Shown one piece after another: positions 7,820 to 29,353 of a stretch of DNA of 47,598 nucleotides. The position numbers and the translations under genes were made by a program. How positions within the stretch are numbered: the stretch's first letter is position 1; each line of letters begins with the position of its first letter. Origin of the DNA: Nitratireductor sp. ZSWI3 (GTDB lineage: Bacteria > Pseudomonadota > Alphaproteobacteria > Rhizobiales > Rhizobiaceae); NCBI RefSeq assembly GCF_024655565.1, contig NZ_JANKOF010000029.1, positions 1 through 47,598 on the forward strand. The letters run 5' to 3'. The notes under the pieces are model-generated. The model did not search any database. It had not been told where the DNA came from and saw only the letters and a list, made by a program, of their open reading frames with translations.

Positions 7820-9448
7820 CTACTCGGAACCGAGGTAAACATTGGAAACAAAGGCGCAGTCGTCCGAGAGGCGTTTTACGTATCCGAGCCCCGTCAGCCG
7901 CCTTTCGAATGCTCTGACGTTCTCTTCGAAAGAGGAAATGTCGCACGGCGGCACGGCAAAAGCCTCCCGTGACTGAACCGGGCCAATGACGAACCCGTAG
8001 CGCTCGTAGAGTTCCTCGAGGAAAGCCCCGATCGTTTTTGGTTCCTTGACCACGGCGAGGACGAGCGCCTCAAGGAAATCGTCCGACGATGCAAACCAAG
8101 TCCCCGCGCTCCGGCGCGCAACGACGAAGCCCGAATTGGTCCCAAGCGGGCTCACCATCGTCGAGATATTGTTTCGGCTGCGCCGCTTGGCGTCATGAAT
8201 AAAGGCGTTCAACCAGTCCTCGGGCTTGCGCTGGGCCTCGGACTTTGCGCCCCACTTGCCGGCGCTGAAGGCGCGCTGAACAACTTCGAGTGCCTGGGCC
8301 GATCGCATGGCGGGATCGGGTTGGCGCAATGCGGCTTGCCAGGCCGGCGCAGAAGCGATCTTTTCGCGGATGAAGGCTTCGACGGCATCCTCGATCACCT
8401 GGCGGTGCCGGCGGAGATAGGACTTTGAAACGTCCCTGAGGTTCGCATCGCGCCCCCCGAGCATATCGAGCGGGATGGGATCGACCTTTTCATTGCCGGC
8501 AACGACCTGGGCCCGCTCGGCAAAGTACCGCATCAGATTGAGCGCGGTGATGCGAAAGAGAGGCTCGAACTTTTGTGGCGTGGGGAGCCGGTCGAGCTCG
8601 AGGATCGAGAGCCAGTCCTCGCCCATCCGGTCATAGGCGGGATGGTGCCGCTTGGGCAGATACCCGATCTGGCCGCCCGTCGTGCGATCGGACCCGTCGG
8701 GGATGAACTTGGCCGCAATCTTGTTGACTGGGTCCTTGTTGACGAGGAAATGGTTCTTGATCGCCAGCGCGAGCTTATCGGCTTTGGACGAGCGGTTCAG
8801 CATCAAATAGACCATTTCGCCGCCGCGCCCAAAGAACATGCGATCGGCGACGAATTTGGGATCAACGTCATTGAGAATGAGATTGGCCCCGCGGGGAACC
8901 AGAAACCGCGACGTGTACCGCCGATTGTTGAGCACGTCGATCTCGAGGCCCTGCAGGATCCTTACGGCCTGGCGGGCATCTTCGAACCTGTCGCCAAAGC
9001 TTTTGCGCAAGAATTCGAAATTGATCGGCGCACTCGCCCTTACTTCGTTCCGGAACCCGCTGTTGAGCTCGGCAATCCACTGCGACATGCGCTCATTGGG
9101 CGACAGGGTCGGGTCCTTGGCAACGCGCTCGAGCGAGCGGTCCTTGAAAAGAACGTAGCGCAACGCGGCCGATTTGGTGACCGGCACGATGAAGTTCTCG
9201 TGTTCGTCGGCGGCCGAGACATTGTGATTGAAGATGCGCATCGATTCATAGGGGCGGCCGTCGTCTCCAAGCTGGAGGGCGCTGCAGATCGCGAGCACTT
9301 CAAGGACCAGGATGTAGGGAAGCTGCTCTTCAACGAACCGGTGACCAAAGATGGCTTCCTGGACCCACATCAGGGTGTCGGCGCCCTTGCCGTCTTCGCC
9401 CATATTGAGCTTGAGCGAGGGGGTGTCCTTCGTGAGCGTATCGAGCAT
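7820..9448 (-). CDS. sspG: SspG-like subunit of the PT-dependent restriction module, 542 aa
   Basis: I do not recognise a catalytic motif. It is a soluble protein without a signal peptide or membrane segment. Its start overlaps the stop of the upstream ATPase gene in a TGATG junction, and the downstream sspH starts nine bases after its stop, so all three are almost certainly made together. In the DndFGH and SspFGH complexes the middle gene is likewise a protein of roughly 450-550 aa without a recognised enzyme domain. The call is therefore by operon position and size. A residual possibility is a specificity or scaffold subunit unrelated to described SspG proteins. Confidence 0.65.
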   Translation of the reverse strand: MLDTLTKDTPSLKLNMGEDGKGADTLMWVQEAIFGHRFVEEQLPYILVLEVLAICSALQLGDDGRPYESMRIFNHNVSAADEHENFIVPVTKSAALRYVLFKDRSLERVAKDPTLSPNERMSQWIAELNSGFRNEVRASAPINFEFLRKSFGDRFEDARQAVRILQGLEIDVLNNRRYTSRFLVPRGANLILNDVDPKFVADRMFFGRGGEMVYLMLNRSSKADKLALAIKNHFLVNKDPVNKIAAKFIPDGSDRTTGGQIGYLPKRHHPAYDRMGEDWLSILELDRLPTPQKFEPLFRITALNLMRYFAERAQVVAGNEKVDPIPLDMLGGRDANLRDVSKSYLRRHRQVIEDAVEAFIREKIASAPAWQAALRQPDPAMRSAQALEVVQRAFSAGKWGAKSEAQRKPEDWLNAFIHDAKRRSRNNISTMVSPLGTNSGFVVARRSAGTWFASSDDFLEALVLAVVKEPKTIGAFLEELYERYGFVIGPVQSREAFAVPPCDISSFEENVRAFERRLTGLGYVKRLSDDCAFVSNVYLGSE

Positions 9449-11247
9449 CAGAGTTGCCCCTCCAGCGAGCCAATGACCCGCTCGCGCAGGGTTTCTTCAC
9501 TCGTATCCACGGCCTTGAGATCGGGCATTTCGTCGCCCTCGCTGTTTTGGATCGCACCGACCGACCGGATCTGGAAGCTGCGCACGTCCTGGAAGCACTG
9601 ATTGGAAAAGCTCATAGGCAGCGCACCGTCATGGACCCGCATCAGATACTCGAAGAGCGTCGGCGTCAGGGGAAGCGATGCAAGCGTGTGCTTTTGGGGA
9701 TAGGCGGCGTCGAGCTCAAGCCGCGGTGGGCGCCCCGGGTAGGACGGCGCGGCAAGCGCGAGCGAATAGGGCCGGCTGCGCCATGTGATCGGATTGGTCA
9801 CAAGGATCGGAATGTCGGCGCCCTTATAGACCCCAGAGGGTTGGGTCAGCCACAAGCTGTCGGCCGTTTCGGTCAGCGATCCAGTGAGCGCCCGGTTGAG
9901 ACCCTTGACGATCCTGGGGCGCGTCCAGAGAAACAGCTCCTGGTCCCGTTCGTCTTCGGCACGCAGAAGGTTGATGTAGAGGTCCCCGTAGCTGTGGACA
10001 GTCAGCTGCCAGGGGCTGGTTTCGCGCTTGTCGAGCGGGGCGTCAGGCCATTCGAAAAAGAGCCGGCGCCGCTGGGCCGTCAGCGCTTCGCGCAGTTCAC
10101 TGATCCGCTCGCTGGGATTTTCCTTGTAGTTCTCGCGCAGCTGGGCATAGCTTGCCGAGCCATATTGGGGATGGTCGACCGGGTCCGGCCGGTGATCGAC
10201 ATCGAGAAGCAAATCGTCAAAGAAGTTGTTAGTTTCGAACCCGATACCGAACTCATCGAGCGCGGCAAAGCCGGCATGCTGCATCCGGCGCGCGGCGGGA
10301 TGGTTTTCGCCAAAGACGTTGTTGTAGGGGTTTGTGCGATCATATTGCCCGGAAGCCGCCCTTTGAGCAGCCCGCGACGCGTTCATCAAGGGCGTCTGGT
10401 AGGGGGACGTCGTGTCACCCAAGAGCGCATTGACCACGAGTATGATGATCTGCCGGATCGAGAGATGCCTGTCGTCGGCAGCAGCGATTTCAACAAGCGC
10501 GCGAAGCCGGCTGCGCAGGGACGCCGGCTCGTTTTTGAGTAGAATCTCACGATTGATGAGGATCGGGCAGGCCTGCGGATCGGCAACGCACTGGCGGTAG
10601 TCCTGCCACCCAGGGTGCTTGCAGATCTGATCGATAATGGCGTCTATCGTTTCCGCGTGTGACCGGCGCGACATGTTGATGAGGCGGAAATGCCAATGCT
10701 CGGGCGTATCCTTGTCGTCACGCAACAGCTCGCGAAGTGCGGTCAGGATGGCCGGCCCGTCCGGTCCCGCGCCCATATGCGTCTCCCAAGTGCGCAGCAG
10801 ATGGCCGTCATTGACGCAAAGAACAAAGATTTCGGGAGAGGCGAGGTTCGAAAAGGCCGCGATCAGCTTGGGAATGAGCGCGGCCTTGTCCGCCGTTTCG
10901 ATCTCGCTCAGATCCTTGACGAACACGATCGAGCGGCCGGTCTCAGGATCGGGCCAGGTGACGGTATCTTCCGTATTGCCCCAGACCCTTGACGACCCGG
11001 AGAGTTTTTCAAGGACCTTGCGCGCCGTATAGGTCTTGCCGTCGCCTGCGGTCCCCGTGAGGATCACCGAGCGCGGAGTAGGCCCTCGAAGCGTCTCGAC
11101 GATATCATCGGAATGCATTTCAGGAATGGCGAGCGGCTCCACGCCCGCCTTTTCGGCGGCAGCGACGACGAACTCGTCGTACATGTTGTTGCCGTCAGAT
11201 GTCGGCCCGTACGCGGCCAGAAACTCGATGAGACCCGACTGTGCCAC
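9448..11247 (-). CDS. sspF: SspF-like P-loop ATPase, 599 aa, GTG start
   Basis: This P-loop NTPase has Walker A GTAGDGKT at residues 65-72 and a hydrophobic strand ending IVFVKDLSE at ~107-115 as the Walker B candidate. It resembles the DptF/DndF type of ATPase that opens the restriction half of PT systems. The start is GTG at 11247, chosen because GGAGGGG lies directly upstream and the first residues read MAQSGL. The 72-base gap from sspD is the only sizeable gap in the operon and holds a 9-bp inverted repeat, so sspFGH may have its own control. The stop overlaps the sspG ATG by one base. The SspF name is by analogy. Confidence 0.7.
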   Translation of the reverse strand: MAQSGLIEFLAAYGPTSDGNNMYDEFVVAAAEKAGVEPLAIPEMHSDDIVETLRGPTPRSVILTGTAGDGKTYTARKVLEKLSGSSRVWGNTEDTVTWPDPETGRSIVFVKDLSEIETADKAALIPKLIAAFSNLASPEIFVLCVNDGHLLRTWETHMGAGPDGPAILTALRELLRDDKDTPEHWHFRLINMSRRSHAETIDAIIDQICKHPGWQDYRQCVADPQACPILINREILLKNEPASLRSRLRALVEIAAADDRHLSIRQIIILVVNALLGDTTSPYQTPLMNASRAAQRAASGQYDRTNPYNNVFGENHPAARRMQHAGFAALDEFGIGFETNNFFDDLLLDVDHRPDPVDHPQYGSASYAQLRENYKENPSERISELREALTAQRRRLFFEWPDAPLDKRETSPWQLTVHSYGDLYINLLRAEDERDQELFLWTRPRIVKGLNRALTGSLTETADSLWLTQPSGVYKGADIPILVTNPITWRSRPYSLALAAPSYPGRPPRLELDAAYPQKHTLASLPLTPTLFEYLMRVHDGALPMSFSNQCFQDVRSFQIRSVGAIQNSEGDEMPDLKAVDTSEETLRERVIGSLEGQL

Positions 11248-11319: not shown

Positions 11320-12150
11320 TTACTTGTGGCAAGATAGGCACATCTTGGCCTGTCCGTAGAGATCGTCGATATCGATCGGCTCGCCGTCCGGGCGAAGCGG
11401 ATTGGGTTGCATTTTTGCCCGCGCCCGCTCGAGCCGCGCCTCGTGATCGCGCCGGACCTGTGCGACGCGCTCGGGCTGCTCGAGGTCCTCAAGCGACTCC
11501 CCATGGCTCCAGGTGAACGGCGAGCCATGCTCGAGCGCGTTCTTTTCGTACGCCTTGGCCTCCTCATAGGCCTCGGGATGACGTTCGCGCAGGCGGATCC
11601 ATTCGATCTTTTGCTGGAAAAAGCAGAAAGTGCAGCCACTGCGTGAGCGCCATTCATAATAGGCCGGCAGTCCAAGCCCCGACGCTTCGAGCAGCTCAAT
11701 GACCCCAGCCTTGTCGACCCCTGCCTCCCGAAAGGGCAGGCTAACCGTGAGGTTGTCCTTGGAGGAACTGTACCCTTCGCGATACGGTTCATCGGACCGT
11801 ATCGCGACATAGGAAACCACCTCGTCACCCGCATCGAGCATTGGGCGCACCCAGTTTTCGAACGGGCGCAGCTTGAGCATGCGGGTGCACCAACGTGATT
11901 GCGCCGAGGGTAGATAGGAATTGTACTGCTTGTGCCAGAAGTCGAAGTCGCGATCGGGATTGAGCCTCAGGATCGGCTTTCCTAAGACACCCTCGAGACG
12001 CCCTAGATAGTCATAGACCTCAGGCAGCTCCTTACCCGTATCAGTGAAAAAATACTCGATATCGAGATCTGGATGAGTATGCCGCATGTGTACGGCAAGA
12101 GCGGCGCTGTCGCGGCCGCCCGATAGGCCGAGTACGTGTCGCTGTGCCAT
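11320..12150 (-). CDS. sspD: SspD: PP-loop (PAPS-reductase-like) sulfur-transfer protein, 276 aa
   Basis: This member of the PAPS reductase/ATP pyrophosphatase superfamily has the PP-loop SGGRDS at residues 10-15. In DNA phosphorothioation such proteins (DndC, SspD) activate the DNA phosphate with ATP and hand on the sulfur. Cysteines are grouped as RWCTR (C88), CTFC (C173, C176) and CLSC near the C-terminus (C271, C274), consistent with an iron-sulfur or metal site. The ATG overlaps the sspC stop by one base (TGATG). The neighbours sspB, sspC and a desulfurase make the PT role much more likely than sulfate assimilation. Confidence 0.88.
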   Translation of the reverse strand: MAQRHVLGLSGGRDSAALAVHMRHTHPDLDIEYFFTDTGKELPEVYDYLGRLEGVLGKPILRLNPDRDFDFWHKQYNSYLPSAQSRWCTRMLKLRPFENWVRPMLDAGDEVVSYVAIRSDEPYREGYSSSKDNLTVSLPFREAGVDKAGVIELLEASGLGLPAYYEWRSRSGCTFCFFQQKIEWIRLRERHPEAYEEAKAYEKNALEHGSPFTWSHGESLEDLEQPERVAQVRRDHEARLERARAKMQPNPLRPDGEPIDIDDLYGQAKMCLSCHK

Positions 12151-15100
12151 CAGGCGCTGACCTCCCTGCGCGTTTCGATGGTCCGCTCGCCATCCTGATC
12201 ATTGATCAGTTGCGAGCTCAGCCGGGCCAGAGCAGCGAGAACAAGCTTGTTGTCCGCCCCGTCCAGGCTCGATTGCAGCCGTGCGACGATCGCATCGACT
12301 TCTTGATTTTCTGTGTCGTTGATGTCAAACGCGCCGTAGACCGGCATCGAGCTCCCCGCCACTCGAACCACCACGGCCATCGCTTCGCGCTTATCCGTGC
12401 GGCCCTTGACGTGGGCGAAGGCCTCAGCGCGGTTGAACGCCTGGCAGAGCTCTGCAAGCGCGAACGCGGCGCGATCGACATCCGCATCGGACCAGACACG
12501 TGGCGGTCGGCCAACGGCAAGCGAAGCCAGCCCTTCCATATCTTGATCGGTCGCGTGGAAATTGGCGATGCGCCCGACAAACGCCTCGAGCTTGAAGTCG
12601 CCCGCGAGATCCCGAATGTTTTCGGCGCGCGAGCGAAGATCCTCGATCGCTTTGGGGGATGGGTTCGGAACCTGCAATTCGTTGAGAACGTTCGCGCGCA
12701 TTCTATGCAGGAGCTCAGGATAGGCGCTCACAAGCTCTTCGAGCCCTTCGCGAACGTTGGCGATTACCTCGGTTGTGTCGGCATTCCCGGTCTCGCCGAC
12801 AAAAAGGCTCGGCAGGTCGTTAAAGATCAGCCTGTTGGGGTCATTGGCCTTCTTGAAGATGTTGCGCACCGCCGACGCATTACGCGAGAGTCGCATCGTC
12901 CTCTTGGTCCACGGAGAGACCCGGTCAAAGACCGCCACGAGACCACGCCCGACATCAATCGGCTCGAGATTGGTCAGCGCGTTGGTTCTGTCGAGGTCAC
13001 GCACAAGGTCTGCCAGTCCTGAAAGCAGGGACCGTGCGTTCTCGTTGAGGTCCATCCAGCGCAGGGCGATCAGTGCAGGGTCCTTGACGAGGTAGTCAAT
13101 GTCGAGGTCGTTGAATGCCGGCTGGAATATGGTCTCGCGATAGAGTGCCACGGACGCCGACATCGAGAGCATGAAGGCAACGCCCAGGATCGGCATGACG
13201 CCGCGCTTGAGCCCGAACGGCGCCGCGCCCCAAAGGTCGTAGAGTTCCGAAAGCGGAACCGCGCGATCAGCATTGGACTTGAGATAGTCCTCAGCGGCTG
13301 TCCACAACGGCGCTAGCCCGGCCGGGTCGTTTTCCACCTTGCGCGGATCGGCAAAGGCGTATCCCTCGCCGTCTCGTGCATGAAGGCCGGTCGTCTCAAG
13401 CATTGAGAGATAAAGTCCGCCCTCGGCCGGATACCCCTCGATACCGAGCCGCGGTTCGCGCGCCCGGGTGACCATGAGCTTGAGGAGGGCGTTCTGAGCG
13501 GCAACGGCGTTCGAAGAGGGCTTGATCCGGTTGATGAGCTCGTTGGGCAGGTGCGGTGTTTCGGGGTACCGGGCGTCCGCAAGGTCAGACGCCATTTCGC
13601 TAATCTGCCGTGACGCCAGGGTCCGCGGCTTATCTTCAGCGTGGAACCACTCGGCAACGCTCATGGCACGTTGGACCTCGCCCTCGAACTGGCCTTGGGT
13701 CGACGAAAGGCGCGCGTTGACTTCGCGACGCGCGACAGCGTCCCCCTGAAGGTCGGGCAACATGCGAACCTTTTCGAGTGCCTGGACCTCGAGGGCGAGC
13801 TTGACCACGAAATCGGCGTGTTGGGACACCCCGAGAACGATGTCCCACGCGAGGGCCTTGCGCGCAAGTTTGCGCATGTCCTTGGAGAGCCGCTCATAAC
13901 TTTCGCCCCCGTCGGGAACCACAAGGACGAATGCGCCAATCGTTCCGTCGGCCGGCGAGAATGCATCGAGGTAGCCCTCGACTTTGCTCGACTTGACGAG
14001 CTCGACGTCGAACCAGCGCAATGCGCCGGTGGCGTGGTAGTGCCGCTTGCACAGGACTGGCTGCAGACCCGAAAGCGAGCGGACAAGTCCCATGTCCACT
14101 TCTGGATGATCGGCAGTCTTGTCTTCAATCGCCGCTTCGATGTCGAAATCGCTGCCGGCATAAACGCCAAAGGCGTTGGTGAATTTTCGGAAGACGATCA
14201 GCGACCATTTGGTAAGCTGGGTCAGGGCGGCCTTTACGTCGCGCGAGCGGGCGCCAAGCACGCTCACTTCGAGCGCACGCCGGTCTGGAACTAGGCCGGA
14301 TTGATCCTTAAAGAGATCGATGATTGAGATGGTCTTGAGAAGGGCGATGTGCAGTTCATCACCTCCAAGCGCCGCGCACCGGTCGATGGCCTCAACCGCC
14401 ATCGCCCAGCGGTGACCATCGGGCGAGGAGAGAATAGCAGGCTCGAGGTTGACGCGAAGATAGTCCCAGAGCCGGGCAGGCTCATAGAGATCGCCATCTT
14501 CCCCGCTACCGAGGAATTCGCGGAAACCAAACGGCTCGGCCGAATTGAGGAAACCGAAGACGCTGCGCTGGTTCTGCCCAAACCGCCGCCGAGAGATTGG
14601 ACCGAGAAGGGCGGCCGTCACTGGATGCAGCGGCCAGCAGGACCTCAGGAGATCAACAATCGCCTCGGACGCTCCAGCACGATTGGCAACGATGACCTCA
14701 CCAACCGCACGGGCGGCCGGAAGGTGTTCCGCCGATGGCGGCGTTCCTGAAATGGCCCGCGACAGGATCGATATTTGCTCCTCACCGCCGACATTGACCG
14801 GCAGGTCGACGAAGCGGCCATGGATCTTGGTCCAGTCATCGCGCAGGTCGCGAGAGAGCCGGGTGGCATATTCGTCAAAACCCTGGTGCAGGATACCGAT
14901 GAAGACCAGCCGGCCATTGCTGCGTGACGCGAGTTCGGCAATCTGCTGCAGAATATGGACGTCGCCGACACCGCGTGCCGCGGCCTCCAAGAGCTTGCCC
15001 ATCTCGTCGATGAAAAGAATGAGCCCTCCGTGGCTTGCAGGCTTTTCCTGAGCCAATGCCGAGAGTGTTTTGAGAACGCGGGCTTCATCCCATTCGCACG

Positions 15101-15515
15101 GCTCGGCATATTCCGAGCGCTCGATCGCTTCACCGATGATGCGGACAGGGTCATCCTTGCGCCCAACCGCACCGAGAATCCGCCATCCCTTCTTTCTGGG
15201 CGGCAGCTTTTCCCACAGAACCTCGGCAACGTCCCGCCCGACAATCTCCGCGGCCTCTTCGCGCAGGTCCTTCTTGCCGTTCATGAGCGCGCTTAGTGCG
15301 ATCACAAGGCTTGACTTGCCGCTGCCATAGGGACCCGTCCACGTGAAGGCGGCTTGGCCTGTGTCAGAGACGTGGTGCGCAAGCCTCTTGAGGATCTCGA
15401 CCGACGAAGGCGGGCACACAAAGCCGCGCAGGGCATCCGTATCGCCAAGATCTGTATCGATCCGCACGGCCCGTTGGAAACGCGGCTCGATCGAAACGTG
15501 GTCAATGAGGCTCAT
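12150..15515 (-). CDS. sspC: SspC: large P-loop ATPase of the PT modification module, 1121 aa
   Basis: Walker A GPYGSGKS is at residues 61-68 and Walker B LILFIDE at about 165-171, so the N-terminal third is an ATPase domain. The remaining ~850 residues carry no motif I can name. The architecture resembles large BrxC/DUF499-like ATPases, but the operon (DUF4007 gene before it, PP-loop gene after it) identifies it as SspC, the ATPase that works with the SspB nickase and SspD. Both junctions with its neighbours are one-base TGATG overlaps, so the three proteins are probably made in balanced amounts. The start is fixed by the sspB overlap and by the position of the ATPase core. Confidence 0.85.
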   Translation of the reverse strand: MSLIDHVSIEPRFQRAVRIDTDLGDTDALRGFVCPPSSVEILKRLAHHVSDTGQAAFTWTGPYGSGKSSLVIALSALMNGKKDLREEAAEIVGRDVAEVLWEKLPPRKKGWRILGAVGRKDDPVRIIGEAIERSEYAEPCEWDEARVLKTLSALAQEKPASHGGLILFIDEMGKLLEAAARGVGDVHILQQIAELASRSNGRLVFIGILHQGFDEYATRLSRDLRDDWTKIHGRFVDLPVNVGGEEQISILSRAISGTPPSAEHLPAARAVGEVIVANRAGASEAIVDLLRSCWPLHPVTAALLGPISRRRFGQNQRSVFGFLNSAEPFGFREFLGSGEDGDLYEPARLWDYLRVNLEPAILSSPDGHRWAMAVEAIDRCAALGGDELHIALLKTISIIDLFKDQSGLVPDRRALEVSVLGARSRDVKAALTQLTKWSLIVFRKFTNAFGVYAGSDFDIEAAIEDKTADHPEVDMGLVRSLSGLQPVLCKRHYHATGALRWFDVELVKSSKVEGYLDAFSPADGTIGAFVLVVPDGGESYERLSKDMRKLARKALAWDIVLGVSQHADFVVKLALEVQALEKVRMLPDLQGDAVARREVNARLSSTQGQFEGEVQRAMSVAEWFHAEDKPRTLASRQISEMASDLADARYPETPHLPNELINRIKPSSNAVAAQNALLKLMVTRAREPRLGIEGYPAEGGLYLSMLETTGLHARDGEGYAFADPRKVENDPAGLAPLWTAAEDYLKSNADRAVPLSELYDLWGAAPFGLKRGVMPILGVAFMLSMSASVALYRETIFQPAFNDLDIDYLVKDPALIALRWMDLNENARSLLSGLADLVRDLDRTNALTNLEPIDVGRGLVAVFDRVSPWTKRTMRLSRNASAVRNIFKKANDPNRLIFNDLPSLFVGETGNADTTEVIANVREGLEELVSAYPELLHRMRANVLNELQVPNPSPKAIEDLRSRAENIRDLAGDFKLEAFVGRIANFHATDQDMEGLASLAVGRPPRVWSDADVDRAAFALAELCQAFNRAEAFAHVKGRTDKREAMAVVVRVAGSSMPVYGAFDINDTENQEVDAIVARLQSSLDGADNKLVLAALARLSSQLINDQDGERTIETRREVSA

Positions 15516-16489
15516 CAGGCGACCCTCCGCACGATATCGGTATCGTAGTCATGCCCGAGGATAGTGAGCGCCTCGACCTGATCGATCGCACGTCGCCGAA
15601 TTACCTGCTTAAGGCCGGCCGTCTCCGACCATTGGAGCGCGCCATTGGTTGCGTCTTCAAGTTCGGACAGCCGATCGACGAGGTCGGATTCTTCGAGCAG
15701 GAATACCCGTCCGGGCGAACCCGGCTCATGCGCAATGGCCTCGAATGAAAGTGTGTTGCGCAGGGCAGCACCGCCGGCATACCGATCCCAGAAATCGATC
15801 AGCGCAAATACGAACGCCCCCGCGCCGAGGGTTGGCTTGGCCCCGCGAACCATGCGAAAGCCATCCTTCTTGCCCGTGGGCCGAATGAGACCAAGCTCGA
15901 CAAGCGGAGACTCGAGGTCGTCCTCGTGGGAAGATTTGCTCGATTTGTACTTTGGGCAATAGCTGCGCACTAAGCAGTCGACGTCGCGCTTGACTGTGGG
16001 TTCGGAGATCCTCATCCAACCGGGCGCCTCCTTGGCGGCGGCGAGTACGGATCTCAAGAGCAGATCGCGGTCGAAATTGACGAAGGGCAGGTGCCCAAAC
16101 GCCCAATACCACGTCGTGCGCATTGGCCGTCCGGCAAGATTCCAGTGCGCAATCCATGCGGTGGTAGGCGATTCCATGAACGGATCCCAACCGCCGTTCC
16201 CAAAAAGCGCGTTCCCCAAGGGCGTGACGCTGATGTGACCATCGGCGTCGGCTGACGAAATCATATCGGCCGCCTCGGCCCAAAACCGGATGGAAGTGAC
16301 CATGTTTTTACCAACGCCGAACTTTCCGATCGCGTCGTCACCAAGGAATATGGTCCGGTTGTTGGAGATCGATTCGTTCTCGAGAACCGCGTCCACGGCC
16401 TTTTTGAGCCAACCGTATTTGAGCGGAAAGGTCTCGTGACCGGAAAACTGCGGCCGGTAATCCGGCGCGAATAGAGGCCCCCGCGACAT
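15515..16489 (-). CDS. sspB: SspB: DUF4007 DNA-nicking protein of the PT system, 324 aa
   Basis: The N-terminal FSGHETFPLKYGWLKK segment (residues ~15-30) and the following NxxxFLGDDAIGKFGVGKNMV region are characteristic of DUF4007. SspB is described as the nicking component that, with SspC and SspD, installs single-strand phosphorothioates. It is the first gene of the six-gene minus-strand operon. The start at 16489 is supported by AGGAG six bases upstream; that Shine-Dalgarno partly overlaps one of the two palindromic operators (16499-16515). A candidate promoter is TTGACC (16548-16543), 17 bases, then TAGTGT (16525-16520). The only alternative role I considered is a BREX type 4 component, which is disfavoured because pglZ and brxL are absent. 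Confidence 0.88.
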   Translation of the reverse strand: MSRGPLFAPDYRPQFSGHETFPLKYGWLKKAVDAVLENESISNNRTIFLGDDAIGKFGVGKNMVTSIRFWAEAADMISSADADGHISVTPLGNALFGNGGWDPFMESPTTAWIAHWNLAGRPMRTTWYWAFGHLPFVNFDRDLLLRSVLAAAKEAPGWMRISEPTVKRDVDCLVRSYCPKYKSSKSSHEDDLESPLVELGLIRPTGKKDGFRMVRGAKPTLGAGAFVFALIDFWDRYAGGAALRNTLSFEAIAHEPGSPGRVFLLEESDLVDRLSELEDATNGALQWSETAGLKQVIRRRAIDQVEALTILGHDYDTDIVRRVA

Positions 16490-16498
16490 GAATCACTC

Positions 16499-16515
16499 CT
16501 GGATGGATCATCCAG
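16499..16515. promoter_or_regulatory. Operator copy 1 at the sspB start: CTGGATG-GAT-CATCCAG
   Basis: Perfect 7-base arms surround a 3-base centre. The site covers the predicted sspB transcription start (~16513) and touches the Shine-Dalgarno, a position typical of repression. The same arms recur at 16553-16569. No DNA-binding regulator gene is seen in the cluster, so the binding protein is unknown. Confidence 0.75.
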
Positions 16516-16519
16516 GGTG

Positions 16520-16548
16520 ACACTAGAGGGGCCTCGACATATGGTCAA
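16520..16548 (-). promoter_or_regulatory. Candidate sigma-70 promoter of the sspBCD(FGH) operon
   Basis: On the minus strand TTGACC (16548-16543) is followed after 17 bases by TAGTGT (16525-16520). The -35 element and spacing are good; the -10 element is weak. It lies between the two operator copies and fires toward sspB. Confidence 0.45.
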
Positions 16549-16552
16549 TGAA

Positions 16553-16569
16553 CTGGATGGTGCATCCAG
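16553..16569. promoter_or_regulatory. Operator copy 2 upstream of sspA: CTGGATG-GTG-CATCCAG
   Basis: The arms are identical to copy 1 with a different 3-base centre. The two centres are 54 bp apart, close to five helical turns, so dimers bound at both sites could sit on one face of the DNA. This copy ends 19 bases before the sspA ATG and would cover the expected -10 region of sspA; a TCGACA hexamer at 16534-16539 is a possible -35. Confidence 0.75.
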
Positions 16570-16588
16570 ATCGGGCATGGAGGGGTTA

Positions 16589-17725
16589 ATGAACCGAATC
16601 TATCTCGACAATCACGCCTCGACGGAGGTCGACCCGCGCGTGGCACAGGCAATGGCCGAGGCCGGCTTTGGCAATCCTCATTCCGATCACGCTGTGGGAT
16701 GGGAAGCCGCCGCCAAGATCGACGAAGCCCGCGCCGGCATCGCAATGCTGATCGGTGCAAATCACGAAGAGATCATTTTCACCTCGGGCGCCACCGAAGC
16801 CAACAATCTCGCGATCCTCGGCATGCGCAGAAAGGCCGCCGAGGGGCGCAACAAGATCATTCGCAGTGCCATTGAGCACAAGAGTGTCATTGCGGCCTGT
16901 GATCACCTGCGCGCCGAATGGGGCTTTGAAATCACGGTCCTGCCGGTTTCAAGCGAGGGGATGGTTGATCTCGACGCGCTCGAGGCAGCCTTGGATGAGC
17001 GGACCGCTCTTTGCACGGTCGGGTTCGTCAACAATGAAATCGGCACCATTCAGGATGTTCGATCGATTGGCCGCCTTTGTCGCGATGCTAGCGTGCCGCT
17101 CCACACCGACGCCGTTCAGGCCCCGCTTGCAGCTGACATCTCAGATCTTGCGCGGTGGTGTGATCTCATCAGCCTGTCCTCGCACAAGATGCATGGTCCC
17201 ATGGGAGTTGGTGCCCTTTTTATTGCCGGCGATATTCAGCACGCGATTGCGCCCATTATGTTCGGAGGTGGTCAGCAGAGCAGCTTGCGTCCGGGGACGC
17301 TGCCCCTGCAGCTCTGCGTTGGTATGGGGACCGCAGCGCAGCTCTGCCTGAAAAATGAGGTCTGGCGCAACAACATCACGCAAACCCGCGACGCATTCCT
17401 TGATGAACTACGGGCCCTCGGCATGCAGTTCCATCTCAATGGCCCGGAGCCCGGCCCATTTCGCCACCCTGGAAATGCCAATATCAGCTTTCCCGGCATC
17501 GAAGCAGATGAGCTCATCGGCCTCCTGCAACCCCAATTGGCCGCATCGTCGGGTTCGGCCTGCACTGCGGGGACGATCGAGCCGTCGTACGTCCTTACAG
17601 CGCTCGGGCTTCCAACTGATCAGGTCAGGTCCGCGGTTCGCTTTGGATTTGCCATGAAAATGGATCCCGCAAAAGCCCGAGAAGCTGCACTCTTGGTCAG
17701 CGATGCCGCTGAACGATGCACCTAA
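16589..17725 (+). CDS. sspA: SspA: cysteine desulfurase supplying sulfur for DNA phosphorothioation, 378 aa
   Basis: This is a PLP-dependent NifS/IscS-type cysteine desulfurase. It moves sulfur from cysteine to its own catalytic cysteine and on to SspD. The PLP lysine is K200 in SSHKMHGP, the histidine H98 lies in EHKS, and the catalytic cysteine is C325 in SSGSACTAG. Length fits the family. The start at 16589 is preferred over an in-frame ATG at 16517 because GGAGG lies five bases upstream, the protein then opens MNRIYLDNHAS as in homologues, and an operator occupies the intervening DNA. It is transcribed divergently from sspB, and the shared twin operators suggest joint control. Confidence 0.9.
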   Translation: MNRIYLDNHASTEVDPRVAQAMAEAGFGNPHSDHAVGWEAAAKIDEARAGIAMLIGANHEEIIFTSGATEANNLAILGMRRKAAEGRNKIIRSAIEHKSVIAACDHLRAEWGFEITVLPVSSEGMVDLDALEAALDERTALCTVGFVNNEIGTIQDVRSIGRLCRDASVPLHTDAVQAPLAADISDLARWCDLISLSSHKMHGPMGVGALFIAGDIQHAIAPIMFGGGQQSSLRPGTLPLQLCVGMGTAAQLCLKNEVWRNNITQTRDAFLDELRALGMQFHLNGPEPGPFRHPGNANISFPGIEADELIGLLQPQLAASSGSACTAGTIEPSYVLTALGLPTDQVRSAVRFGFAMKMDPAKAREAALLVSDAAERCT

Positions 17726-18964: not shown

Positions 18965-20995
18965 ATGACACCGACGAAGCTCCTTATCGGCCAAATCGCT
19001 GTCGTGTTCGCCATCGTCATCCTTGGCGTATGGGCCGCCACGCAGTGGTGCGCCGATATGCTGGGCTATCAGGAGCAACTCGGCTCGCCATGGTTTGTGG
19101 CGGCCGGCTGGCCGATCTACAAGCCGTGGAAACTGTTCGTTTGGTGGTTCCAGTTCGAGGCCTATGCGCCGGAGGTCTTCAACAAAGCCGGCATGCTGGC
19201 CGGCGCCAGCGGCTTTATGGGCTGCGCCGCCGCGATCGCCGGCTCGCTTTGGCGTGCCCGGCAGCGCGGGCTGGTCACGACCTATGGCTCCTCACGATGG
19301 GCTGTGAAGCGTGAAATCGAGAAGGCTGGACTGTTTCGGCCGGCCGGCGTGTTTCTCGGCAAGCTGCAAGACCGCTATCTGCGCCATGACGGGCCGGAGC
19401 ATGTCATGGCCTTCGCGCCGACGCGCTCGGGCAAGGGTGTGGGTCTGGTCGTGCCGACGCTTCTTTCCTGGACAGGCTCGGCGGTGATCCACGACATCAA
19501 GGGCGAGAATTGGCAGCTGACTTCCGGCTGGCGCTCGAAGTTTTCGCACTGCCTCCTGTTCAATCCGACCGATTCACGATCGGCCCGCTACAATCCGCTC
19601 CTGGAAGTGCGCAAGGGTCCGCACGAGGTTCGCGACGTCCAGAACATCGCCGATATCCTGGTCGATCCGGAAGGCGCGCTGGAACGGCGGAACCATTGGG
19701 AAAAGACCAGCCACGCCCTTCTGGTCGGCGCCATCCTGCACGTGCTCTATGCCGAAGAGGAGAAGACGCTCGCCCGTGTCGCCACCTTTCTGTCGGACCC
19801 GCAGCGCTCGTTTGCCGCGACGCTCAGGCGGATGATGACCACCAATCATCTCGGCACCACGGAAAAGCCTCAGGTCCATCCGGTTGTCGCCTCGGCTGCG
19901 CGCGAGGTGCTGAACAAATCGGAGAACGAGCGCTCTGGCGTCCTGTCCACAGCGATGAGCTTCCTCGGGCTTTATCGCGATCCGACCGTGGCGACGACGA
20001 CATCCGCCTGCGACTGGCGCATTGCCGACCTCATGGATGCAGACCGACCGGTCTCTCTCTATCTCGTCGTGCCGCCTTCGGATATTTCGCGCACCAAGCC
20101 GCTGGTGCGGCTGGTGCTCAATCAGATCGGCAGGCGGCTAACGGAGCGACTGGAGGGTGATCCGAGGAAGACTCGCAAACACCAGCTTCTCATGATGCTG
20201 GACGAGTTCCCGGCGCTGGGAAGGCTCGATTTCTTCGAAACCGCACTTGCCTTCATGGCCGGCTATGGCATCCGCGCCTATCTGATCGCGCAGTCACTCA
20301 ACCAGATCTCCAAGGCCTATGGCGAGAACAACGCCATTCTCGACAACTGCCATGTGCGGATCGCCTTTTCCTCGAACGACGAGCGCACGGCCAAGCGCAT
20401 CTCGGACGCGCTCGGCATGGCGACGGAACTGAGGGCCATGCGCAACTATGCCGGCCATCGACTGGCGCCCTGGCTTTCCCACGTGATGGTGAGCCGTCAG
20501 GAGACGGCCCGGCCGCTGTTGACACCGGGCGAGGTGATGCAGTTGCCGCCCACCGACGAATTGGTGTTGGTCTCCGGCCTGCCGCCGATCCGCGCGAAGA
20601 AGCTGCGATATTACCAAGACAGAAACTTCACCGAGCGCGTGCTCCTTTCGCCGGTTCTGGGCGGCGGCCCCTATATTGATTGTCCCGCGCGGCGACCCGA
20701 CGATTGGCGCGGTCAGGTGCGCGGCGTGGACCGCCGTCTTGCCGCCGACGACGAGAGCGCCGACGCCGCGTCCGACAACGAAGGCGGCGTCCAACAGCAG
20801 CGTCATCCGGGCCTGCCCGGAGAAAACGAAAGGAAAGCCGAACAGCCTGATCAGGGCGACCTGTTCAAGCCCGCCGACGATGGCGGCGAGACGGTCGCCG
20901 ACAGGCAAGTCATGGACCGGATTTCCAATGCCGCCCGCGCCTACGGCATCAACGAGGGCATGGGTGACGACAAGGACGTCCTGCCCGGTTTCTGA
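18965..20995 (+). CDS. traG: Conjugative coupling protein TraG (VirD4 family), 676 aa
   Basis: This inner-membrane ATPase links the relaxase-DNA complex to the type IV secretion channel. Hydrophobic segments are visible at residues ~6-25 and ~75-95. Walker A PTRSGKGVG is near residue 150 and Walker B LMMLDEFPALG near 409. The ~90-residue C-terminal tail is acidic and low in complexity. It opens the conjugation operon; the downstream RHH gene follows after ~115 bases. Length and motifs are typical of P-type TraG proteins. The gene is intact. Confidence 0.95.
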   Translation: MTPTKLLIGQIAVVFAIVILGVWAATQWCADMLGYQEQLGSPWFVAAGWPIYKPWKLFVWWFQFEAYAPEVFNKAGMLAGASGFMGCAAAIAGSLWRARQRGLVTTYGSSRWAVKREIEKAGLFRPAGVFLGKLQDRYLRHDGPEHVMAFAPTRSGKGVGLVVPTLLSWTGSAVIHDIKGENWQLTSGWRSKFSHCLLFNPTDSRSARYNPLLEVRKGPHEVRDVQNIADILVDPEGALERRNHWEKTSHALLVGAILHVLYAEEEKTLARVATFLSDPQRSFAATLRRMMTTNHLGTTEKPQVHPVVASAAREVLNKSENERSGVLSTAMSFLGLYRDPTVATTTSACDWRIADLMDADRPVSLYLVVPPSDISRTKPLVRLVLNQIGRRLTERLEGDPRKTRKHQLLMMLDEFPALGRLDFFETALAFMAGYGIRAYLIAQSLNQISKAYGENNAILDNCHVRIAFSSNDERTAKRISDALGMATELRAMRNYAGHRLAPWLSHVMVSRQETARPLLTPGEVMQLPPTDELVLVSGLPPIRAKKLRYYQDRNFTERVLLSPVLGGGPYIDCPARRPDDWRGQVRGVDRRLAADDESADAASDNEGGVQQQRHPGLPGENERKAEQPDQGDLFKPADDGGETVADRQVMDRISNAARAYGINEGMGDDKDVLPGF

Positions 20996-21109
20996 ATTTC
21001 CATTGTCGGGCGCATCTCGGCGTAGATAAGGGCCATAAGCGAATCCAGGCATCTGAACGATGCTCGTTCCGCATCCGGCGCATGGGCGCCGGCAACCGGA
21101 ACGAGCCGC

Positions 21110-21523
21110 ATGAAGCCCGAACGCATCCGTCATCAGTTTCTCCTTGATTCCGAGCTGAGCGCGAAGCTCGATCGGCTCAGCCGCAATCCCTCGACCACCA
21201 AGTCGGAGATTGTGGCAAAGGCGGTCGAGGCCTTCCTCGAGCAGCGCGGCGAGAACGAGCTCGATCGGCGCTACGGCCAGAGGCTCGACCGTCTTTCGCG
21301 CGACCTCGACCATGTCCGCCGCGATGCCGAGATGATCCTAGAAAGCCTGGCGCTCTTCATCCGCTTTTCCATCACGCTTCACGCCCACACGCCGGTTCCG
21401 GACAAGGCGACACAGGCGATCGCGCAGGAGCGCTTCCAAAAATTCGTCGAGCAGGTCGGCCGCCAGATCGCCTCCGGAAAGCGTTCGCTTCATGAAGGCG
21501 ATGGCGGGGGAGAAGAAGGATGA
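21110..21523 (+). CDS. CopG/RHH-type regulator preceding trbB, 137 aa
   Basis: The N-terminal segment IRHQFLLDSELSAKLDRLSR followed by a TTKSEIVAKAVEAFLEQ helix is a ribbon-helix-helix fold of the CopG type. The rest is helical and ends in a Gly/Glu-rich tail. It lies between traG and trbB, the usual place of such a regulator in alphaproteobacterial ICEs, and its stop overlaps the trbB start (ATGA). It may repress the tra/trb operon; no target site was identified. Confidence 0.8.
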   Translation: MKPERIRHQFLLDSELSAKLDRLSRNPSTTKSEIVAKAVEAFLEQRGENELDRRYGQRLDRLSRDLDHVRRDAEMILESLALFIRFSITLHAHTPVPDKATQAIAQERFQKFVEQVGRQIASGKRSLHEGDGGGEEG

Positions 21524-22488
21524 CCACGCATCCCGAGGCCGATCACCGCCGCCGCACCATGCTGCGCACCGCCATGGGTCAGGCGATCGCCGATGCGCTG
21601 GCCGATCCCTCCGTCATCGAGGTGATGGTGAACCCCGACGGCGCGCTGCGGCTCGACAGGCTGGGCAAGGGCCGAGTCGACACCGGTGTGCGCATGCATC
21701 CGACCGAAGCGGAACGGATCATCCGCCTGGTCGCCTCCCACGTGCGCGCCGAAGCCCATGCCGACAACCCGATCGTCAGCGCCGAACTGCCGTCAGGCGA
21801 ACGCTTCGAGGGACTGCTGCCTCCCGTGGTCTTGGCGCCAAGCTTCGCGATCCGCAAGCCGGCCGCCAAACTCTATACGCTCGTCGATTACGTCGCCGAA
21901 CGTATCATGATGCCGGTCCAGGCCGAGGCGCTGAGGAAGGCCGTCCGCGATCGCAGCAATATCCTGGTCGCCGGCGGCACGTCGTCGGGCAAGACGACAC
22001 TTGCCAATGCACTGCTCGCCGAAGTGGCCGAATGCGCCGAGCGCGTGATCCTGATCGAGGACACACGCGAACTGCAATGCGCGGCGAAGGATTGCGTTGC
22101 GCTCAGAACACGGCGTGGCTCGGTCACCCTTGCCGATCTTGTTCGCTCGACACTGCGGCTCAGACCCGATCGCATCATCGTCGGCGAGGTCAGGGGTGCG
22201 GAAGCCCTCGACATGCTGAAGGCCTGGAACACCGGTCATCCGGGCGGCATCGCTACTGTTCATGCCAATTCGGCGCGCTCCGCCCTCTACCGTATCGAGC
22301 AGCTCGCTCAGGAAGCCGTCGTCACCGTTCCCCGTCGTCTCATCGCCGAAGCCATCGATCTGATCGTCTTCATCGCCGGGCGTGGCTCATCGCGCCGCAT
22401 CGACGCGATCGCCGAGGTCACCGGTCTCGACGGAAATGGCGACTACGCCGTCACGCAACTCACGCTCCCGCAACTCCAGCAGTTTTGA
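21520..22488 (+). CDS. trbB: TrbB: conjugal transfer ATPase (VirB11 family), 322 aa
   Basis: This hexameric secretion ATPase powers pilus assembly and substrate transfer. Walker A GGTSSGKTT is near residues 150-158, the Asp box IEDTREL follows, Walker B is in DRIIVGEVRGAEALD, and the His box TGHPGGIATVHANS comes after. Length is normal for TrbB. It is translationally coupled to the RHH gene by a 4-base overlap, and trbC starts 11 bases after its stop. Confidence 0.95.
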   Translation: MTTHPEADHRRRTMLRTAMGQAIADALADPSVIEVMVNPDGALRLDRLGKGRVDTGVRMHPTEAERIIRLVASHVRAEAHADNPIVSAELPSGERFEGLLPPVVLAPSFAIRKPAAKLYTLVDYVAERIMMPVQAEALRKAVRDRSNILVAGGTSSGKTTLANALLAEVAECAERVILIEDTRELQCAAKDCVALRTRRGSVTLADLVRSTLRLRPDRIIVGEVRGAEALDMLKAWNTGHPGGIATVHANSARSALYRIEQLAQEAVVTVPRRLIAEAIDLIVFIAGRGSSRRIDAIAEVTGLDGNGDYAVTQLTLPQLQQF

Positions 22489-22499
22489 AAGGCAACTTC

Positions 22500-22808
22500 A
22501 TGCGTAAGAAGCTTCGCTTTCTATCGTCGACCGCCATCGCGTTTCTTGTCACGGTTCCGGCCCATGCGGCCGGTTCCGGCATGCCGTGGGAGGAACCGCT
22601 GCAGCAGATCCTGGAATCGGTGCAGGGGCCGGTCGCCAAGGTCATCGCGGTGATCATCATTATCATCACCGGCCTGACGCTCGCCTTCGGCGACACGGCG
22701 GGCGGCTTCCGCCGGCTGATCCAGATCGTCTTCGGCCTGTCGATCGCCTTTGCCGCTTCGAGCTTCTTCCTCTCCTTCTTCTCCTTCGGCGGCGGGGCGC
22801 TCGTCTGA
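22500..22808 (+). CDS. trbC: TrbC: pilin-like subunit (VirB2 family), 102 aa
   Basis: This small hydrophobic protein has an N-terminal signal peptide ending ...VPAHA (residues ~1-22) and two membrane helices (VIAVIIIIITGLTLAF and the segment after RRLIQIVFG). This is the layout of TrbC/VirB2 pilins. The start ATG at 22500 follows trbB directly. The stop overlaps the trbD ATG in TGATG. Confidence 0.9.
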   Translation: MRKKLRFLSSTAIAFLVTVPAHAAGSGMPWEEPLQQILESVQGPVAKVIAVIIIIITGLTLAFGDTAGGFRRLIQIVFGLSIAFAASSFFLSFFSFGGGALV

Positions 22809-23080
22809 TGGCGCCCGGCGAACAGCACATCGAGGGCTTCGAGATTCCCGTTCACCGGGCATTGACCGAGCCGATCCTGCTTGGCGGCGTGCCGCGTGCT
22901 GTGGCGATCCTCAACGGCACGGTAGCCGCGGCGATCGGGCTCGGGATGCAGCAATGGATCGCCGGCTTGTTGCTCTGGATCGCCGGCCACACGCTCGCCG
23001 TCTTTGCCGCCCGCCGCGACCCGGACTTCGCCAGCGTGCTCATCCGTCACCTCCGCCAGAAGGGTTGGCTCTCATGCTGA
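22808..23080 (+). CDS. trbD: TrbD: inner-membrane conjugation protein (VirB3 family), 90 aa
   Basis: The sequence starts MAPGEQHIEGFEIPVHRALT and has a pair of hydrophobic helices around residues 30-65, the VirB3/TrbD plan. It usually pairs with the TrbE ATPase. One-base overlap with trbC, seven-base overlap with trbE. Confidence 0.9.
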   Translation: MAPGEQHIEGFEIPVHRALTEPILLGGVPRAVAILNGTVAAAIGLGMQQWIAGLLLWIAGHTLAVFAARRDPDFASVLIRHLRQKGWLSC

Positions 23081-25524
23081 ATCTTGCCGAATACCGCAAC
23101 CGGGCCGACCGGCTTGCCGACCATCTGCCCTGGGCGGCCCTGGTCGCGCCTGGCATCGTTCTCAACAAGGACGGCAGCTTTCAGCGGACGTTCCGGTTCC
23201 GTGGGCCCGATCTCGAAAGCGCGACGGAAGCCGAGCTCGTCGGCATCTGCGCGCGGGCGAACAATGCGCTGAGACGGCTCGGCACCGGCTGGGCCCTGTT
23301 CTTCGAAGCCGAGCGCATCGAGGCGCTGGATTATCCGAACGCGCAGTTCCCCGACGCCGCCTCGTGGCTGGTCGACGAGGAGCACCGCGCGGCGTTCGAG
23401 GACAAGGTCGCGCATTTCGAGAGCCGCTATCACCTGACCTTGCTGTTCATGCCGCCACCGGATGGCCAGGCACGCGCCGAAAGCGCACTGGTCGAGTCCG
23501 ATCATTCTGAAGGGATACGGAACTGGCGCCAGGAGTTGACGCGATTCCGGGACGAGACCGACCGGGTCCTGGACCTCCTATCGGGCTTAATGCCCGAGAT
23601 GCGCGCGCTCGACGACGCCGAGACGCTGACATTCCTGCACGGCACGATTTCGACCAGGCGTCATCCGGTCGCTGTGCCGGAGACGCCGATCTATCTCGAT
23701 GGCGCGCTGGTCGATACGCCACTGACCGGCGGGCTGGAGCCGATGCTGGGTGATGAGCAGCTTCGCACGCTCACCATTCTCGGTTTCCCGAATACCACGC
23801 GGCCCGGAATCCTCGACGCGCTCAATCATCAGGATTTTGCTTATCGCTGGGTGACCCGTTTCATTCCCCTCGACAAGACGGAAGCCACGAAGACGCTGAC
23901 CAGGCTGCGCCGGCAGTGGTTTGCCAAACGCAAATCGATCGCGGCCATCCTGCGCGAGGTGGTGACCAACGAGCCGGTGCCGTTGGTCGACAGCGATGCC
24001 GACAACAAGGCGCTTGATGCCGATGCGGCACTCCAGGCCCTGGGCGGCGATCATGTCGGCTTCGGTTACCTCACCACCACGGTGACGGTCAGGGACGAGG
24101 ACCGCCAGGCCGCCGAGGAGAAGCTGCGCGCGGTCGAGCGCATGGTCAACGGGCTCGGCTTCACCACCATCCGCGAGAGCGTCAACGCGGTCGAAGCCTG
24201 GCTCGGCTCGCTGCCCGGTCACGTCTATGCCAATGTGCGCCAGCCGCTCGTCCACACGCTGAACCTCGCCCATCTGATGCCGCTGTCGTCAGTATGGGCC
24301 GGCCCGTCGCGCAACGAGCATCTGGGCAAGGTAACCGCGACGGAAGCTCCGCCGCTGCTCTTCGCCGAGACCAGCGGCTCGACACCGTTCCGGCTGTCCA
24401 CTCACGTCGGCGATGTCGGCCATATGCTGATCGTCGGGCCGACCGGCGCCGGCAAGTCGGTGCTGCTTTCGTTGATCGCCCTGCAGTTCCGCCGCTATGC
24501 CGGCGCGCAGGTCTATCTCTTCGACAAGGGCAATTCCGCGCGCGCGGCCACGCTCGCGATGGGCGGAGAACATCATGCACTGGGCGCCGACGGCTCATTC
24601 GCGTTCCAGCCGCTGCGCAACATCGACGACCAGACCGTCCGCAGCTGGGCCGCCGAATGGGTTGCCGGTCTGCTGGCGCATGAGAACGTCACCGTCACAC
24701 CGGAGGTGAAGGAAGCCGTCTGGTCGGCGCTCACCAGCCTGGCCACCGCTCCGGCGGAAGAACGCACGCTCACCGGCCTGTCGGTGCTCCTTCAGGTGAA
24801 TGCGCTGAAGGCGGCACTCATGCCCTATACGCTGGACGGCCCCTTCGGCCGGCTGCTTGATGCCGATGACGACCGGCTGGCGCTGTCGGACGTGCAGTGC
24901 TTCGAGACCGAGGAGCTGATGCATGAGGCCGGCGTTGTCCTGCCGGTGCTCACCTATCTGTTCCACCGGCTCGAGGCGCGGTTCGACGGGCGGCCGACAT
25001 TGCTCATCCTCGACGAGGCCTGGGTCTATCTCGATAATCCGCTCTTTGCCGCCCGCATCCGCGAATGGCTGAAGGTGCTGCGCAAGAAGAACGTTTCGGT
25101 GATCTTCGCCACGCAGTCGCTTGCCGACATCGCCGATTCTTCCATTGCGCCGGCGATCATCGAGAGCTGCCCGCAGCGTATCTTCCTGCCAAACGATCGC
25201 GCCGTGGAACCGCAGGCACGGGCGGCCTATGAGCGCTTCGGTCTGAACGAGCGGCAGATCGAGCTGATCGCCCGCGCCACGCCCAAGCGCCACTACTATC
25301 TGCAATCGCGCCGCGGCAATCGGCAGTTTGAGCTGGGTTTGGGTCCCGTGGCACTGGCGCTCTGCGGCGCCTCCGATCCGGCCGCGCAGACCCTCATCGA
25401 CACCATTCTTTCCGAGCACGGGCGGGACGGCTTCGCCTCCCGGTTTCTCGGTGCGCGCGGCCTCGGCTGGGCCGCCGAGCTTCTCGAGCAATTCCCTCAA
25501 CCAGACAAGGAGCAATCGTCATGA
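23074..25524 (+). CDS. trbE: TrbE: conjugal transfer ATPase (VirB4 family), 816 aa
   Basis: This is the large cytoplasmic ATPase of the mating-pair channel. Walker A GPTGAGKSVLL lies near residue 455 and Walker B LLILDEAWVYLDN near 643; a SVIFATQSLADI segment follows, as in VirB4 proteins. The start at 23074 gives MLNLAEYRNRADRLADHLPW, the normal TrbE N-terminus, and overlaps the trbD stop. The end overlaps trbJ by four bases. Full length, no disruption. Confidence 0.95.
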   Translation: MLNLAEYRNRADRLADHLPWAALVAPGIVLNKDGSFQRTFRFRGPDLESATEAELVGICARANNALRRLGTGWALFFEAERIEALDYPNAQFPDAASWLVDEEHRAAFEDKVAHFESRYHLTLLFMPPPDGQARAESALVESDHSEGIRNWRQELTRFRDETDRVLDLLSGLMPEMRALDDAETLTFLHGTISTRRHPVAVPETPIYLDGALVDTPLTGGLEPMLGDEQLRTLTILGFPNTTRPGILDALNHQDFAYRWVTRFIPLDKTEATKTLTRLRRQWFAKRKSIAAILREVVTNEPVPLVDSDADNKALDADAALQALGGDHVGFGYLTTTVTVRDEDRQAAEEKLRAVERMVNGLGFTTIRESVNAVEAWLGSLPGHVYANVRQPLVHTLNLAHLMPLSSVWAGPSRNEHLGKVTATEAPPLLFAETSGSTPFRLSTHVGDVGHMLIVGPTGAGKSVLLSLIALQFRRYAGAQVYLFDKGNSARAATLAMGGEHHALGADGSFAFQPLRNIDDQTVRSWAAEWVAGLLAHENVTVTPEVKEAVWSALTSLATAPAEERTLTGLSVLLQVNALKAALMPYTLDGPFGRLLDADDDRLALSDVQCFETEELMHEAGVVLPVLTYLFHRLEARFDGRPTLLILDEAWVYLDNPLFAARIREWLKVLRKKNVSVIFATQSLADIADSSIAPAIIESCPQRIFLPNDRAVEPQARAAYERFGLNERQIELIARATPKRHYYLQSRRGNRQFELGLGPVALALCGASDPAAQTLIDTILSEHGRDGFASRFLGARGLGWAAELLEQFPQPDKEQSS

Positions 25525-26246: not shown

Positions 26247-26279
26247 TCGAAGCCTGACAGGCAAGAGGAAGGCGGCAAC

Positions 26280-29343: not shown

Positions 29344-29353
29344 GGAGGCAGTC

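Follow-up and report, generated by a model that had tools for sequence, protein, structure and literature searches.

How a phosphorothioate defence cassette might govern its own expression is the question raised by a 47,598-nucleotide stretch of the Nitratireductor sp. ZSWI3 genome (contig NZ_JANKOF010000029.1, positions 1 to 47,598; hereafter the window), in which two palindromes of the same form lie between the divergent genes sspB and sspA. In the portions of the Ssp literature surveyed, neither an ssp operator nor SspB as a regulator is described (the founding Ssp paper may mention one), and the limits on Ssp self-expression and modification are left unexplained there. The form, distribution and position of the palindromes are considered below, together with the protein that would read them.

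The ssp cluster and its twin palindromes

The palindromes belong to an SspABCD-SspFGH phosphorothioate defence system, in which PADLOC matches SspA, SspB, SspC, SspD, SspF and SspG. The minus strand carries sspB (DUF4007; 15515–16489), encoding the DNA-recognition subunit and proposed operator reader, followed by sspC (AAA+ ATPase; 12150–15515), sspD (PAPS-reductase family; 11320–12150), the restriction-module genes sspF (9448–11247) and sspG (7820–9448) and, in the sspH position, an FtsK/SpoIIIE-domain gene of 1793 amino acids (2429–7810) that is named by position and size, not by family match. The cysteine desulfurase gene sspA (16589–17725) is divergent, on the plus strand. The window SspB matches the solved SspB structures 6juf and 6lb9 over residues 13–296 (E 3.3e-33); an AlphaFold model of SspB (three sequences; mean pLDDT 45.7) was discarded. 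The cluster is flanked, at 133–2103 and 18965–30571, by a DUF3363/relaxase-like gene and type IV secretion genes (coupling protein, T2SSE-family ATPase, TrbE/VirB4-like, TrbL, TrbI), a setting that resembles an integrative conjugative element (ICE).

The palindrome CTGGATG-N3-CATCCAG occurs at 16499–16515 (copy 1, sspB side) and 16553–16569 (copy 2, sspA side), with perfect 7-base arms in both copies, arms of 8 bases in copy 1 and a distance of 54 bp between centres, and these are its only two matches in the 5.2-Mb genome. Allowing up to three mismatches, the window holds six matches against 2.65 expected, a number reached in 2 of 100 shuffles, and only these two are exact. A sequence-only reading of this DNA had reported two exact palindromes at 16499–16569 with 7-base arms, 54 bp apart, as the sequence search bears out. 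That reading had also placed copy 1 over the sspB start and Shine-Dalgarno sequence, of which the second part holds for two bases of overlap (AGGAG, 16500–16496, minus strand) and the first does not, the start codon (16489–16487) lying outside the palindrome. The 8-base form CTGG-N9-CCAG is not rare in itself; one example lies inside sspC (14621).

Conservation upstream of related sspB genes

Relatives of SspB came from named genomes, from further genomes at family, class and phylum level, from plasmids and from viral contigs; scoring covered the sequence between 110 nt upstream and 9 nt downstream of each projected sspB start. For plasmids, 96 records matched and 25 of the 60 listed were taken, mostly by rank and skipping apparent near-duplicates, a choice made before any upstream sequence was seen; two distant plasmids, in which the motif is absent, were added later. 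Three matches in phage records (24–27% identity) were left out of the locus set. E. coli genomes searched with the Vibrio ssp stretch gave no match, and searches around G981, G727 and G507 returned only genomes already included, L077 being the G981 place again.

The exact CTGGATG-N3-CATCCAG was present in none of the 13 first relatives and was thereby ruled out as the conserved unit. CTGGA-N7-TCCAG was found upstream of sspB in 4 of these 13 and then in 6 of 7 relatives of another draw, often in two copies, and the shorter CTGG-N9-CCAG was adopted after the plasmid loci had also been viewed. Across the SspB-bearing loci compared, the conserved element is CTGG-N9-CCAG, often as CTGGA-N7-TCCAG, and conservation does not reach the inner bases of the arms. 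In the pooled set, 51 of the 54 loci with 37% or greater SspB identity to the window protein carry it close to the sspB start; they come from Alpha-, Beta- and Gammaproteobacteria as well as from plasmids and viral contigs. Far from being absent from all related sspB/sspA pairs, the outcome named by the sequence-only reading as its refutation, the palindrome thus recurs upstream of related sspB genes as CTGG-N9-CCAG, if not in the exact form first described, and the earlier proposal of an operator pair at the divergent sspB/sspA promoter gains support from this conservation.

The component counts are consistent with the pooled one. In the non-viral set, 38 of 41 loci at 37% identity or above carry the element, as do 33 of 36 after similar upstream regions are dropped. 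The identity cut was set post hoc to include L075 (37.6%); with a cut of 38% the count is 37 of 40, and below 38% the element is found in 1 of 16 loci, namely L075. Plasmid loci at 38% or above contribute 21 of 23, which is not a clean held-out test because CTGG-N9-CCAG was settled after these loci had been viewed. For the viral contigs the pattern was fixed in advance and was found in 13 of 15 loci, a held-out test in a set that was gathered with an alignment of operator-bearing loci, is uncontrolled for likeness to earlier loci and includes two pairs with identical upstream regions; the misses are the two most diverged SspB, and all 13 positive loci have SspB at 37% identity or above.

Chance accounts poorly for these counts. 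Among the 40 loci at 38% or above, 37 have a spacer of 9 and not one has a different spacer within 0–25, and when all 4-base inverted repeats with spacers of 0–20 are ranked, CTGG-N9-CCAG comes first (37 loci), followed by its own overlapping shifts (20 and 16) and then by a repeat in 7 loci. In 500 dinucleotide-shuffle runs of the same loci the mean was 0.10 and the maximum 3 loci. One other spacer (4) was present in the viral set, in 1 of 15 loci. Mapped on the SspB tree, the operator label changes 4 times, compared with 16.8 on average after shuffling, a clustering to which relatedness alone contributes and in which some long branches are placed unsurely.

The three exceptions at 37% or above are L064, with one base changed, L073 (Thermomicrobium), with no element, and L045, which carries TTGG-N9-CCAA twice. 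This form, with the outer base changed and the TGG...CCA core kept, is also present in L046 and L076, two of the 15 loci of the main set below 37%, none of which has CTGG-N9-CCAG; the latter is likewise absent below 37% from 2 of 2 viral and 2 of 2 distant plasmid loci. Control of this kind is therefore not general to the SspB family. At loci of 37% or above, operator copies are often extended to ACTGG-N9-CCAGT, with both the preceding A and the following T in 32 of 64 copies, the T belonging to the sspA stop codon in co-directional loci. Distant hosts share the sequence of the palindrome, its spacer and its placement close to orthologous start codons, as would be expected of the operator of a cassette-borne regulator, and it is almost certainly an operator of Ssp cassettes.

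Position at predicted promoters and at the 3′ end of sspA

In the window, the predicted sspB promoter TTGACC-17-TAGTGT (16520–16548, minus strand) has 8 of 12 consensus matches, below the scan threshold of 9, and the predicted sspA promoter GTGACA-17-TATGGT (16517–16545, plus strand) has 9 of 12; the two face and overlap each other. The operators start 4 or 7 bp past the −10 element of one predicted promoter each. Copy 1 lies at the predicted sspB transcription start, a site with equivalents in related loci, and copy 2 lies 7 bp past the predicted sspA −10 and 4 bp upstream of the predicted sspB −35. Copy 2 had been thought to cover the sspA −10 region, a placement that does not hold: the promoter-like pair occupies 16517–16545, so copy 2 begins at about the predicted sspA transcription start. 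Each window copy is thus predicted to cover the start of one of two facing promoters, these starts falling at about 16513 on the minus strand and 16552 on the plus strand.

Promoter geometry was scored across 13 divergent loci, by the best pair per locus without a chance control and leaving out L045, L071 and L087, which also have a divergent layout or twin copies. A TTGACC or TTGACG hexamer stands 4–8 bp past the sspA-side operator in 12 of the 13 (L028 is the exception), and the facing sspA pair scores 7–9 of 12 in 11 of them and only 5 in L042 and L055. Four divergent loci (L003, L004, L042 and L055) have the sspA-side copy only. The twin copies of ten loci are 54, 55, 57, 57, 57, 58, 58, 58, 59 and 59 bp apart, and further spacings are 55 (L087), 32 (L044 and L075), 38 (L071) and 29 bp (L093). 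These values rule out a constant helical phasing between copies, and the suggestion that the spacing reflects looping or cooperative binding is weakened, since the ten loci span 54–59 bp and not one helical phase. The 54-bp spacing of the window is inferred to follow from its promoter geometry.

Where sspA and sspB are co-directional, the site falls inside the coding sequence of sspA. At 37% or above it lies at the sspA 3′ end in 21 of 21 such loci (with the changed base in L064), immediately followed by the stop codon in 19. The codon that supplies the CT of CTGG has the form NCT in 20 of the 21 loci, whereas such codons make up 15–18% of usage in the same genes, and the third base preceding the CAG codon, the first C of CCAG, is C in 21 of 21 against 33%; these loci are related, and the codon counts are not independent trials. 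Such constraint on synonymous positions suggests conservation at the DNA level. The C-terminal SspA residues at the site (Thr, Ala or Pro, Gly, three variable residues, Gln) are partly conserved, so some of the nucleotide identity could be protein-level. In the 20 co-directional loci whose site is exact, the −35-like and the −10-like hexamer flanking the 17-mer each reach 3 or more of 6 matches in 15, the failures being L043, L054, L067, L072 and L074; the hexamers are consensus matches without a chance control, and the promoters are predicted, not mapped. Upstream of sspA in the co-directional loci, no 10-base operator with one mismatch or fewer was found, and few with two.

The proposed reader and its alternatives

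The 17-mers are proposed to be operators through which the ssp cassette, carrying its own regulator, controls its expression. Because the copies cover predicted starts in the window or fill the spacer between −35-like and −10-like hexamers in many co-directional loci, a bound protein would be expected to obstruct RNA polymerase, which makes repression the probable mode of control. Build-up of the product would then shut both promoters and cap the sulfur-modification machinery. The reader would be SspB, probably as a dimer and possibly with SspC or SspD.

SspB is named because it is the winged-HTH DNA-recognition subunit of the cassette and because each half-site contains CCA, so that TGG...CCA forms an inverted CCA pair. 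In the available accounts SspB has a triple winged-HTH architecture (PMC10853773), crystallises as a dimer (PMC9240713), is required for modification as a nickase (PMC7188994) and serves as the DNA-recognition component of the system (PMC10853773, PMC12707154). The triple winged-HTH description leaves the earlier statement that the cluster contains no recognisable DNA-binding repressor unsupported. The phosphorothioate motif of Ssp is given as 5′-CCA (PMC8092258, PMC8053081). CCA in a 4-base half-site could be a coincidence, the trimer being common; its invariance arises partly by selection, since copies were gathered with TGG...CCA patterns, and the portions of the literature examined contain no demonstration that SspB alone recognises CCA. 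A reader that is SspB or an SspB-containing complex is judged somewhat probable.

Gene content was compared by tblastn in 18 longer operator-bearing loci, using open reading frames of at least 70 amino acids and flanks of 6–10 kb. SspB, SspC and SspD were each found in 18 of 18, which makes them inseparable by this comparison, SspA in 17 (none near L059) and the commonest other gene family in 10. No linked dedicated regulator shared by all 18 loci was found within these limits. Restriction genes vary among the 18, and the operator therefore tracks the modification module. Several loci have features of their own. The SspF match of Devosia aurantiaca (L003, 11244–12945) is in three pieces in different frames, and the gene therefore looks frameshifted or misassembled; on plasmid pSM30-2 (L066, 7745–8667), the sspA annotation that precedes the operator is split in two; and gene families annotated at 14242–18629 of L052 as helicase, ATP-binding protein and phospholipase D family are shared with L025, L026, L027, L031 and L066. 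These families lie near sspBCD where SspFGH was not found and are possibly another Ssp restriction partner.

The sequence-only reading had offered an Ssp protein, an ICE protein or a host factor as the regulator. The first may well be right; an ICE protein is unlikely, given that the element accompanies ssp cassettes on different replicons and in different classes; and the third is the chief rival. A host-encoded or unlinked transcription factor shared by many proteobacteria, into which the cassette plugs, might read the operator, and three same-genus genomes that have no SspB do carry 2, 6 and 7 CTGGA-N7-TCCAG sites against 0–2 for a reversed control. However, 13 of these 15 sites are in open reading frames of at least 798 nt and one is in a frame of 213 nt, a placement that resembles chance matches in genes and speaks against a host regulon in these genomes. 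The one remaining site (L101 of G136, 1590–1606) is outside any open reading frame of at least 60 codons. The other two CTGGA-N7-TCCAG sites of the window genome are also inside open reading frames, and the element accompanies SspB through three proteobacterial classes, plasmids and viral contigs. To our knowledge, no widespread proteobacterial regulator has a CTGG-N9-CCAG consensus, and a host factor is considered rather unlikely. SspC and SspD are as universally present as SspB, and either might be the regulator without it, but SspB is the component to which DNA recognition is ascribed, and this alternative is improbable.

Two further explanations are given very little credence. One is translational control, with the copy beside the sspB start folding into a hairpin in the mRNA and masking the Shine-Dalgarno sequence. 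A strong RNA hairpin over part of the Shine-Dalgarno sequence is indeed predicted on the minus strand at 16487–16520 (copy 1 fold −17.3 kcal/mol, z −4.2), and positions 5/13, 6/12 and 7/11 are complementary in 31, 33 and 37 of 57 distinct copies against 22.5, 22.7 and 20.2 expected, an extra inner symmetry that fits a protein dimer too. Yet transcripts starting at the predicted sspB start, within copy 1, would hold only part of the hairpin; 26 of the 57 copies are non-complementary at 5/13; many co-directional copies occupy the gap from a −35-like to a −10-like hexamer; copy 2 does not fall in the sspB transcript; and no Rfam match was found in 16300–16800. The inverted CCA motifs would also suit preferred sites of SspB nicking or sulfur installation whose proximity to promoters is incidental, but position tracks promoter-like elements in two gene orders, which loading would not need. 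An autoregulatory operator read by SspB is favoured as the best overall reading, with moderate confidence.

This reading has partial precedents, as described in the sources consulted. In Salmonella Cerro 87, DndB binds two palindromic operators, TACG-N10-CGTA, in the dndBCDE promoter (PMC4507180), again a DNA-phosphorothioate system with two palindromic operators in its own promoter; there they are bound by a cassette-encoded protein, which for the Ssp cassette is proposed only, and sequence, spacer and protein all differ. DndB-type regulation is not indicated for the window, where the operator is not TACG-N10-CGTA and none of the eight proteins scanned matches DndB. In the Dnd case the half-site TACG differs from the modification motif GAAC/GTTC, while in the Ssp case CCA lies within the half-site. 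The CfrBI restriction-modification system likewise has divergent genes, overlapping promoters and its own modification motif in the control region (PMC12707154), but its methylation site, between facing promoters, acts directly on RNA polymerase binding, while a bound protein is proposed for ssp, whose half-sites each contain CCA. M.SsoII is a component of a modification system that doubles as a transcription regulator, its N-terminal region regulating its own system (PMC3978073), as is proposed for SspB; the former is a cytosine methyltransferase and the latter a nickase and recognition subunit. BrxR, a WYL-domain repressor of BREX, represses a phage-defence cluster and binds a repeat upstream of its own gene (PMC12707154). 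The ssp locus likewise has a repeat upstream of its proposed regulator's gene in a defence cluster, with repression proposed, but BrxR has a dedicated gene, of which no counterpart shared by the 18 longer loci was found.

Beyond autoregulation by SspB, sensing of the sulfur mark is possible. The operator would be an epigenetic sensor if SspB bound differently to unmodified and phosphorothioate CCA; the sulfur status of the promoter would then indicate how active modification is and would determine expression. This extension is speculative and rather doubtful; if true, it could help to explain why phosphorothioate occurs at only ~10–15% of CCA sites in Vibrio cyclitrophicus FF75 (PMC8092258, PMC8053081).

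A 17-bp element conserved in many hosts gives a signature with which to locate Ssp cassettes and to express them, and a conserved control site with the Ssp motif in each half makes it probable that this defence machine is self-regulating. If SspB is the reader, its natural operators could reveal part of its DNA specificity, and the target-recognition subunit of the defence would double as its own repressor.
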